From positions 1-37,039 of the forward strand of contig JAIFMR010000234.1 of the NCBI GenBank assembly GCA_020048255.1: a DNA stretch of 37,039 nt. Reading direction: 5' to 3'. Below are positions 26,292-29,291 of the stretch, in pieces. Position 1 is the first letter of the stretch, and each line of letters opens with the position of its first letter. A program made the position numbers and the translations under genes. This stretch comes from Rhodoferax sp. (GTDB taxonomy: Bacteria; Pseudomonadota; Gammaproteobacteria; Burkholderiales; Burkholderiaceae_C). Under the pieces are notes generated by a model. The model worked only from the letters and a program-made list of their open reading frames with translations, did no database searches and was not told where the DNA came from.

Positions 26292-27719
26292 TCAAAAGTT
26301 CAGCGTGCGCTTGTCGACCGCGAGTGCAGCTTCTTTGGTGGACTCGCTCAGGGACGGATGCGCATGACAAATGCGGGCGATGTCCTCGCTGCTGGCCCGG
26401 AACTCCATGGCCACAACGCATTCAGCAATCAATTCGCTGGCCATGGGGCCGACGATGTGCACGCCCAGAATCTCATCGGTTTTGGCATCGGCCAGCATTT
26501 TCACCATGCCGGTGGTGTCGCCCAATGCGCGCGCACGTCCGTTGGCCAGAAACGGAAAAGTACCCGCCTTGTACGCCACGCCATCGGCCTTGAGTTGCTG
26601 CTCGGTGCGACCCACCCAGGCAATCTCAGGGCTGGTGTAAATGACCCAGGGAATGGTGTTGAAGTTGACATGGCCATGCTGACCCGCAATGCGCTCAGCT
26701 ACCGCAACGCCCTCCTCTTCCGCTTTATGGGCCAACATCGGACCACGCACCACGTCACCCACGGCCCAGACACCGGGCAAATTGGTGCGGCAATCGCCGT
26801 CCACCACGATGGCGCCGCGCTCGTCAAGTTGTAAACCGACGGCTTCGGCATTCAAGCCAATGGTGTTGGGTACACGGCCAATCGAGACAATGAGTTTTTC
26901 GACATCCAGCGATTGGGCTTCACCCTTGGCATTGGTGTACGCAATACTCACGCCTTTTTTACTGGTTTTGATGTCGCCGACCTTCACACCCAGTTCAATT
27001 TTGAGCCCTTGTTTGTCAAAGGCCTTTTTGGCTTCCTTGGCAATTTGCTCGTCCACCGCACCCAAGAATGTTGGCAAACCTTCCAAAATGGTGACTTCAG
27101 CTCCCAAACGGCGCCAGACCGAACCCATTTCAAGACCAATCACGCCAGAGCCAATTAAGCCGAGCTTTTTGGGTGCGCTCTGGATGCGCAAGGCGCCGTC
27201 GTTCGACAGGATCAGTTCTTCGTCAAAAGGGGTTCCGGGCAGCGCGCGGGCGTTGGATCCTGTCGCCACAATGATCTGTTGACCCACAATGTTTTCTTCA
27301 GCCGCGCCAGTGACCTTAATTTCGTAGCCGCCATCTGCCACCTTAACAAACGAAGCGCGCCCATGGAAGAAGCTGATCTTGTTCTTCTTGAACAAGTACA
27401 AAATGCCGTCGTTGTTTTGCTTGACCACGTTGTCTTTGCGCGCCACCATTTTGGCCACATCCATCGCCAAGCCCTTGACAGTGATGCCATGGTCAGCGAA
27501 GTGGTGACTGGCTTGCTCAAAATGCTCAGTTGACTGAAGCAAGGCCTTGGAAGGAATGCAGCCCACATTGGTGCAGGTGCCACCTGGTGCCGGGCCGCCC
27601 TTGGCGTTTTTCCACTCGTCAATACACGCCACGTTTTTGCCCAGTTGGGCAGCCCGAATGGCGGCAATGTAGCCACCAGGGCCACCACCAATCACGATCA
27701 CATCAAATTGCTTGCTCAT
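26292..27719 (-). CDS. lpdA: Dihydrolipoyl dehydrogenase
   Basis: GGGPGGYIAAIRAAQLG, GGTCTNVGCIPSKALLQ, HAHPSLSE. Confidence 0.96.
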   Translation of the reverse strand: MSKQFDVIVIGGGPGGYIAAIRAAQLGKNVACIDEWKNAKGGPAPGGTCTNVGCIPSKALLQSTEHFEQASHHFADHGITVKGLAMDVAKMVARKDNVVKQNNDGILYLFKKNKISFFHGRASFVKVADGGYEIKVTGAAEENIVGQQIIVATGSNARALPGTPFDEELILSNDGALRIQSAPKKLGLIGSGVIGLEMGSVWRRLGAEVTILEGLPTFLGAVDEQIAKEAKKAFDKQGLKIELGVKVGDIKTSKKGVSIAYTNAKGEAQSLDVEKLIVSIGRVPNTIGLNAEAVGLQLDERGAIVVDGDCRTNLPGVWAVGDVVRGPMLAHKAEEEGVAVAERIAGQHGHVNFNTIPWVIYTSPEIAWVGRTEQQLKADGVAYKAGTFPFLANGRARALGDTTGMVKMLADAKTDEILGVHIVGPMASELIAECVVAMEFRASSEDIARICHAHPSLSESTKEAALAVDKRTLNF

Positions 27720-27773: not shown

Positions 27774-27794
27774 GTTAGCGACTAGCGACTAGCG
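27774..27794. repeat. Triplicate 7-bp tandem repeat
   Basis: GTTAGCG-ACTAGCG-ACTAGCG in the sucB-lpdA spacer. Confidence 0.6.
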
Positions 27795-27898
27795 GCGTGC
27801 GTTGGGTGTCTGACGCAGCAAAATCAAGGAGGAGGATTGGGGCTCACCCCAATCCGGGGGACATTTGCGGAGTCAGATACTCAATGCGCGCTGCGGGT
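27788..27898. repeat. ~111-bp imperfect inverted repeat with a perfect central hairpin (MITE-like or structured RNA)
   Basis: Arms 27788-27822 and 27864-27898 (26/35 identical to reverse complement by manual alignment); centre GGATTGGGG-CTCA-CCCCAATCC at 27834-27855. Confidence 0.75.
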
Positions 27899-27932: not shown

Positions 27933-29210
27933 TTAGATATCAAACAGCAGACGCGCCGGATCTTCCAGCGCTTCCTTCATCGCCACCAGCCCCAGCACCG
28001 CTTCGCGGCCGTCAATGATCCGGTGGTCATAAGACATGGCAAAGTAATTCATCGGGCGCACCACCACCTGGCCGTTTTCAACCATGGCTCGGTCTTTGGT
28101 AGCGTGCACACCCAAAATCGCACTTTGGGGTGGGTTGATGATGGGCGTAGACATCATGGAGCCGAAGGTGCCGCCGTTGCTGATCGAGAAGGTACCGCCG
28201 GTCATTTCTTCCATGCCCAGCTTGCCATCACGGGCCTTGGTGCCAAATTCGGCAATCTTCTTCTCGATGTCCGCAAAACTCATCTGGTCGGCATTACGCA
28301 AAATAGGCACCACCAAACCCCGTGGTGAACCCACGGCAATACCCACGTCAAAGTAGCCGTGATAAACAATGTCTGTGCCATCTACCGAGGCATTGAGCAC
28401 CGGGAACTTCTTCAAAGCGTGAACCGCAGCTTTGACAAAAAAGCTCATGAAACCGAGCTTGACGCCATGTTCTTTCTCAAAACGCTCTTGCATGCGCTTG
28501 CGCATCTCCATTACCGGCGCCATGTTGATCTCATTGAACGTGGTCAGAATGGCGTTGGTGGATTGAGACTGAAGCAAACGTTCGGCCACACGTGCGCGCA
28601 AACGGCTCATGGGAACGCGTTGCTCAGGGCGGCCGCTCAAGGCATCCGCCAAGCTGCTGGCTGGCGCTGCCACTTGAGGCAATAAAGGTGCTGAAGCCTT
28701 TGATGGTATTGCGGGAGCTGCTACAACTTTAGGTGCATCAACAGCGGCCAAAACGTCCCCCTTGGTGACGCGGCCATCCTTGCCAGTGCCAGCCACTGAG
28801 CCGGCAGCCAACTGGTTGTCTGCCATCAGTTTGGCTGCAGCGGGCATCGCCACGCCAGACATGGAGGAACTTGTTGCCACCGGCGCTGCCGGGGCAGCAG
28901 CCGCAGCCGCTGATACCGCAGCCATGGCCACCGTCACCGGTGCAGGTGTGGCCACGTTACCAGCGACACCCTCGGTGTCGATGCGGGCAATCAGTTGATC
29001 TGCGGCCACGGTGCTGCCGTCGGCTTGGACAATTTCAACAATCACACCGGCAGCAGGTGCGGGAACTTCCAGCACCACTTTGTCGGTTTCGACATCAATA
29101 AGGATCTCATCCACAGCGACAGCGTCGCCGACTTTTTTCTTCCATTGCAACAAAGTGGCTTCAGCCACAGATTCAGACAGTTGCGGGACTTTGACTTCTA
29201 CGAGTGCCAT
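27933..29210 (-). CDS. sucB: Dihydrolipoyllysine-residue succinyltransferase (2-oxoglutarate dehydrogenase E2)
   Basis: Lipoyl [15 protein letters not shown]3-binding domain, [12 protein letters not shown]. Start at [13 protein letters not shown]. Confidence 0.96.
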
Positions 29211-29291
29211 AACAATTCTTTCAAAAAATAATCTTGAGGGTTTGCAAAGCGGGACAAGAACCCGCTGCAAACGGTTAACTGGGGGGCGACC

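Follow-up and report, generated by a model that had tools for sequence, protein, structure and literature searches.

The spacer between sucB and lpdA in this Rhodoferax sp. contig carries a long imperfect inverted repeat, which raises the question of whether such a repeat is mobile debris, a device of the operon in which it lies, or a structure of wider occurrence whose fold matters in itself.

The hairpin between sucB and lpdA

In the window, that is, the whole 37,039-nucleotide stretch analysed here, direct reading of the sequence gives 26 matches over the 35 positions of the arms 27788-27822 and 27864-27898. The nine differences comprise six G.T wobbles on the + strand and three mismatches, two of which are G.A/A.G oppositions (27815/27871 and 27817/27869) that recur across the family described below. 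An exact 9-bp inner hairpin lies between the arms at 27834-27855. All of these counts had been given in the earlier note, and they are exact. A search of the window with the covariance model R1 finds exactly one copy of the element, 109 bp long (27789-27897, + strand; 95 bits, E 1.3e-20). The element and its neighbours, whose identities come from NCBIfam equivalog models, are as follows.

27789..27897, + strand: whole element, one copy of the family (R1 model; BLASTN copies in host and relatives)
27792..27814, + strand: 5' arm of the 23-bp outer helix (23/23 pairs covary in 60 diverse copies)
27815..27817, + strand: mismatch zone GCA, facing GGA as G.A, C-G, A.G (family cGCAGC / GCGGAG conserved)
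27818..27822, + strand: 5' side of the inner helix, GCAAA (partner 27864-27868)
27823..27833, + strand: 5' side of the purine-rich core loop, ATCAAGGAGGA (GG-N-GG near-invariant in 290 hairpins)
27834..27855, + strand: variable tip hairpin, GGATTGGGG-CTCA-CCCCAATCC (direct sequence read)
27856..27863, + strand: 3' side of the core loop, GGGGGACA (27858, its middle G, varies jointly with A27830)
27864..27868, + strand: 3' side of the inner helix, TTTGC (partner 27818-27822)
27869..27871, + strand: GGA, partner of the mismatch zone (same family conservation, cGCAGC / GCGGAG)
27872..27894, + strand: 3' arm of the outer helix (23/23 pairs covary in 60 diverse copies)
26292..27719, - strand: lpdA, dihydrolipoyl dehydrogenase, neighbour outside the element (TIGR01350, 531 bits)
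27933..29270, - strand: sucB, dihydrolipoyllysine succinyltransferase, neighbour outside the element (TIGR01347, 536 bits)

As RNA, positions 27780-27905 fold at -68.2 kcal/mol on the + strand (z -7.25) and at -44.7 kcal/mol on the - strand (z -4.18), and in neither case was any of 200 shuffles as good. Folding is beyond chance on both strands and far stronger on the + strand. Since lpdA, sucB and sucA (2-oxoglutarate dehydrogenase E1, behind sucB) all lie on the - strand, the better-folding strand is antisense to the operon, as the earlier note had held. DNA folding parameters, used without a triloop bonus, rank the strands in the same way (-33.9 for + and -20.6 for -), a comparison in which energy does not decide between DNA and RNA. 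Neither a U tract or other terminator-like site nor a sigma-70-like promoter is found at the element, which agrees with the earlier view that it is not a plain terminator.

A dispersed family with a common fold

BLASTN returns six matches in the host, whose genome is 54% complete, and matches in 18 of 40 further relatives, nearly all of the same genus. Thus the dispersed copies that the earlier note had suggested looking for do exist, and two of the outcomes that it had named as telling against the element, a lack of copies and equal folding of the two strands, are contrary to what we observe. The exact core pattern occurs 12 times in the host genome, 22 times in genome G195 and 26 times in genome G211, the latter two each at least 99% complete, with near zero matches for the reversed pattern used as a control. 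A scan of named genomes yields at least 120 stretches with a family match. Among the matches listed are Variovorax, Hydrogenophaga, Rhodoferax, Rubrivivax, Ramlibacter, Aquabacterium and others, together with Luteimonas, Pseudoxanthomonas, Thermomonas and Stenotrophomonas. The family appears to range mainly over the Comamonadaceae and allied Burkholderiales, with some Xanthomonadaceae. A few scan matches, such as those in Longimicrobiales, Thermovorax and one viral contig, failed the stem test and were set aside as chance; of two pattern matches on viral contigs, L195 is the one that fails this test, while L196, on a contig of 5.6 kb, is a genuine copy. A plasmid search returned only two Variovorax replicons of 1.2-1.3 Mb and a phage search no family copy. 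The family is chromosomal, dispersed and old. No Rfam 15 covariance model matches it at E up to 1, no report printing the core sequence was found in the literature searched, and the family is apparently undescribed so far. Three records titled Bacillus subtilis SK7B5 (L111, L129 and L160) contain a variant nearly the same as that of Stenotrophomonas sp. Ste86 (L163) and probably represent a mislabelled assembly.

The fold common to these copies is well defined. Members were picked by the core and by pairing at 15 or more of the 23 positions, a filter that 188 of 214 copies pass and that inflates the percentage of pairing somewhat but leaves the register and polarity contrasts unaffected. The outer helix keeps a single gapless register of 23 pairs in the 214 copies, and all 23 covary among 60 diverse copies; compensating changes are seen in 27 of the 28 pairs that RNAalifold predicts for these copies. 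Covariation scores 0.855, compared with 0.202 for shuffles and 0.10-0.15 for slid partners, and none of 500 shuffles reaches the observed value. The family covariance model comprises 108 positions and 32 pairs. Between the outer and inner helices the G.A mismatches are conserved, and the inner helix alternates between a Watson-Crick form, GCGAA/TTCGC, and a tandem G.A form, GCGAAG/ATGAGC, the form being linked to the base that follows. Beyond it lies the purine-rich core, AAGGAGGA/GGGGGACA, in which GG-N-GG is kept on both sides in 290 hairpins under a loose core requirement. The core pair 27830/27858 is A/G in 242 copies, G/A in 5, C/G in 4 and A/A in 3 (Fisher p 7e-9), that is, the middle A.G switches jointly to G.A or C-G. 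The tip hairpins vary in length and also show compensating changes. Sixteen copies at several unrelated sites, including L037, L049, L050, L058, L060-L062, L064, L066 and L074, have an extra hairpin, GTGGACTTGGGGTTTTGCCAA(A/G)TC, between the inner helix and the purine core.

The fold of one strand is maintained at fixed sites

Outer-helix cells in the 188 copies contain 507 G.T and 28 A.C oppositions. G.T occurs at 0.88 of the chance expectation and every other mismatch at 0.19 or less, and the + strand is the better folder in 233 of 237 copies. The same polarity is seen where a single site can be followed between species. At eight sites common to several species, one-sided differences exchange a Watson-Crick pair for G.U in 136 cases and for A.C in one, with 43 two-sided compensations. 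Because such pairwise counts reuse sequences, the count of site-positions is safer, and here 47 alternate between Watson-Crick and G.U and one between Watson-Crick and A.C. The Watson-Crick/G.U differences include both C/T (87) and A/G (49) changes, so that deamination of one strand is not their cause. At five shared sites the elements are 0.75-0.87 identical, compared with 0.33-0.54 for the immediate 5' flanks and 0.34 for random sequence, and no conserved promoter-like sequence is found outside the stem among the copies. In 37 of 57 cases a copy is most closely related to the same-site copy of another species (at most 20 when shuffled), an approximate figure as one cluster merged several sites, and clustering of copies by genome is not above chance. 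The Watson-Crick/G.U bias at fixed sites, together with near-random flanks, indicates that resident copies are kept folded on the + strand; the fold of one strand is maintained at fixed chromosomal sites by selection on these copies.

Inverted pairs and the possible role of the fold

Where two copies lie close together, they are divergent (-,+) in 54 of 56 pairs, with a median core gap of 121. In G195 such a pair with its spacer forms a unit of about 345 bp that is found at 8 aligned places; no target-site duplication is visible in the alignment of these 8 units. A REP driven by a RAYT was rejected as an explanation, since the two copy-richest genomes, G195 and G211, have no PF01797 (Y1_Tnp, RAYT) gene. 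Nor does the element core occur in 20 PF01797 loci with about 1.5 kb of flank each. In the sets G000-G024 and G423-G458, a RAYT-like Y1_Tnp gene is present in nearly every Rhodoferax genome, usually as a single gene of about 230-260 aa, and at the loci fetched it is unlinked to the hairpin family.

Neighbouring genes show no preferred orientation relative to the element (++ 31, +- 33, -+ 11, -- 39, from crude ORF calls), and few copies lie between divergent genes. On the same crude calls a sense UTR element was rejected. This lack of preference also counts against an RNA reading, as it is unusual for an mRNA element, and so do the negative promoter results at sucB-lpdA and outside the stems of the copies. 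At sucB-lpdA itself, five Rhodoferax-group genomes have a copy in the same orientation, as might be expected of an antisense or operon element acting in cis at this site alone; however, other members of the genus have no copy there, and the family occurs at many unrelated sites. We consider such a device very unlikely, and the operon-specific antisense role raised in the earlier note does not fit copies that lie in either orientation to their neighbours. Among the relatives L227-L256 this spacer is a hot spot of about 9-423 bp whose filler differs per lineage: L243 has the element as an inverted pair, and L239 an ATGACA-type repeat unrelated to it; these spacers are too diverged for empty-site boundaries to be mapped.

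Our preferred explanation, to which we give about an even chance, is that the sucB-lpdA element is one resident copy of a dispersed hairpin family whose + strand fold is selected, most likely as RNA. The idea that it is a dead MITE- or REP-like remnant with C-to-T changes on one strand, as the earlier note had offered as an alternative, or a chance repeat, draws on the existence of a repeat family with mobile-like pairs, but it is scarcely credible given a covariation that shuffling does not reproduce and a pairing preserved at fixed sites by compensatory changes of A/G as well as C/T. A far more serious alternative, possible although we find it less convincing than the RNA explanation, is a mobile palindrome selected as single-stranded DNA, in which a trans-acting recombinase or an HUH-type enzyme would use the + hairpin as its substrate while DNA is replicated or repaired, with no role for the hairpin as RNA. 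C(GNA)G triloops are a hallmark of very stable DNA mini-hairpins, whereas typical RNA loops are GNRA and UUCG, and C(GNA)G tips are present in 101 of 124 copies compared with 7 of 140 background hairpins of the same loci. The inverted pairs, the dispersed unit in G195 and the indifference to gene orientation would all suit such a palindrome. G.G and G.A mismatches, however, are well tolerated in DNA, yet in the outer helix, when set against expectation, they occur 5-15 times less often than G.T, and a helix that admits little but G.T is more easily explained by wobble in RNA than by tolerated mismatches in DNA. Neither the lack of a Y1 transposase gene in the two copy-richest genomes and of a visible target duplication nor the Rhodoferax copies, which are inherited in place and not recently amplified, favour a mobile DNA.

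The nearest published element, likened and set apart here by description, is BRE, a GC-rich repeat of about 90 bp that is dispersed, mostly in intergenic regions, in betaproteobacteria; R. ferrireducens T118 is reported to contain 4 copies (Hot et al. 2011; PMC3110155). One copy, bprJ of Bordetella pertussis, gives a 70-80-nt RNA that is transcribed against both adjacent genes (PMC3110155), and the level of this RNA changes in an RNase III mutant (PMC8386462). Size, dispersed intergenic copies, a range that includes Rhodoferax ferrireducens and an orientation opposite to both neighbours, as in the sucB-lpdA copy, would all be in keeping with identity. But BRE, which is known from Bordetella, forms head-to-tail tandem arrays, whereas our hairpins are single copies or almost always inverted pairs; no credible match was found in 39 genomes of 38 genera of what is presumably the Alcaligenaceae, and Bordetella, Polaromonas and Delftia are not among the matches listed. 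The evidence, in which BRE was compared by description only, leans against identity, and we regard it as improbable.

If the fold is selected as RNA, the hairpin would be produced by read-through or local transcription. Its long outer helix may act as a scaffold, independent of sequence, on which the conserved purine core is displayed, and the core GGAGGA/GGGGGACA, with its G.A pairs, may engage a common partner, probably a protein. The importance of the folded module would then explain why copies are retained at fixed sites, and in some lineages they may multiply as inverted two-hairpin units moved by some factor. We tentatively speculate that this may be a new class of dispersed structured RNA, with dozens of copies per genome, one trans-acting partner and selection by the host. 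It might likewise be that what unites such a class is a core of four GG steps and a covarying A.G/G.A/C-G pair, on stems that change freely but are always complementary.

The family is like REP, REPIN and BIME elements with RAYT in its dispersed palindromes, two of which often form an inverted unit, but REP/REPIN units are 20-40 nt long, whereas the hairpin is about 109 nt with a large conserved internal loop, and its richest genomes are without the RAYT gene. ERIC/IRU, NEMIS/Correia and similar elements are intergenic palindromes of 100-160 bp with no obvious transposase. Compared by description, they resemble the family in size, palindromy and intergenic spread, but the family differs in its fully covarying stem, fixed core, strand polarity and taxa. 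Candidate structured RNAs from comparative genomics (e.g. PMC2864571) similarly have covarying helices around a conserved core and no known function; unlike these, the hairpins occur in many dispersed copies, in either orientation to genes, and outside Rfam 15. Bacterial intergenic palindromes are mostly regarded as mobile debris, and where a fold of one strand is maintained base by base at fixed sites, function can be tested directly against selfishness. A family of RNAs with such a copy number, outside Rfam models, would affect the annotation of many Comamonadaceae genomes, and the partner or mover of the family would be a new protein activity.

Two further observations concern paired copies. 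An autonomous element bounded by two copies 4.85 kb apart in L104 was rejected; ABC exporter operon-like genes lie between the copies, a second copy of the repeat ends the contig, and the arrangement is probably an assembly break at repeats. In Variovorax pairs (L079, L093, L099, L122, L156 and L182) the two hairpins are separated by a 30-45-nt spacer that contains a conserved imperfect palindrome around GTTGATC...ACAAC.
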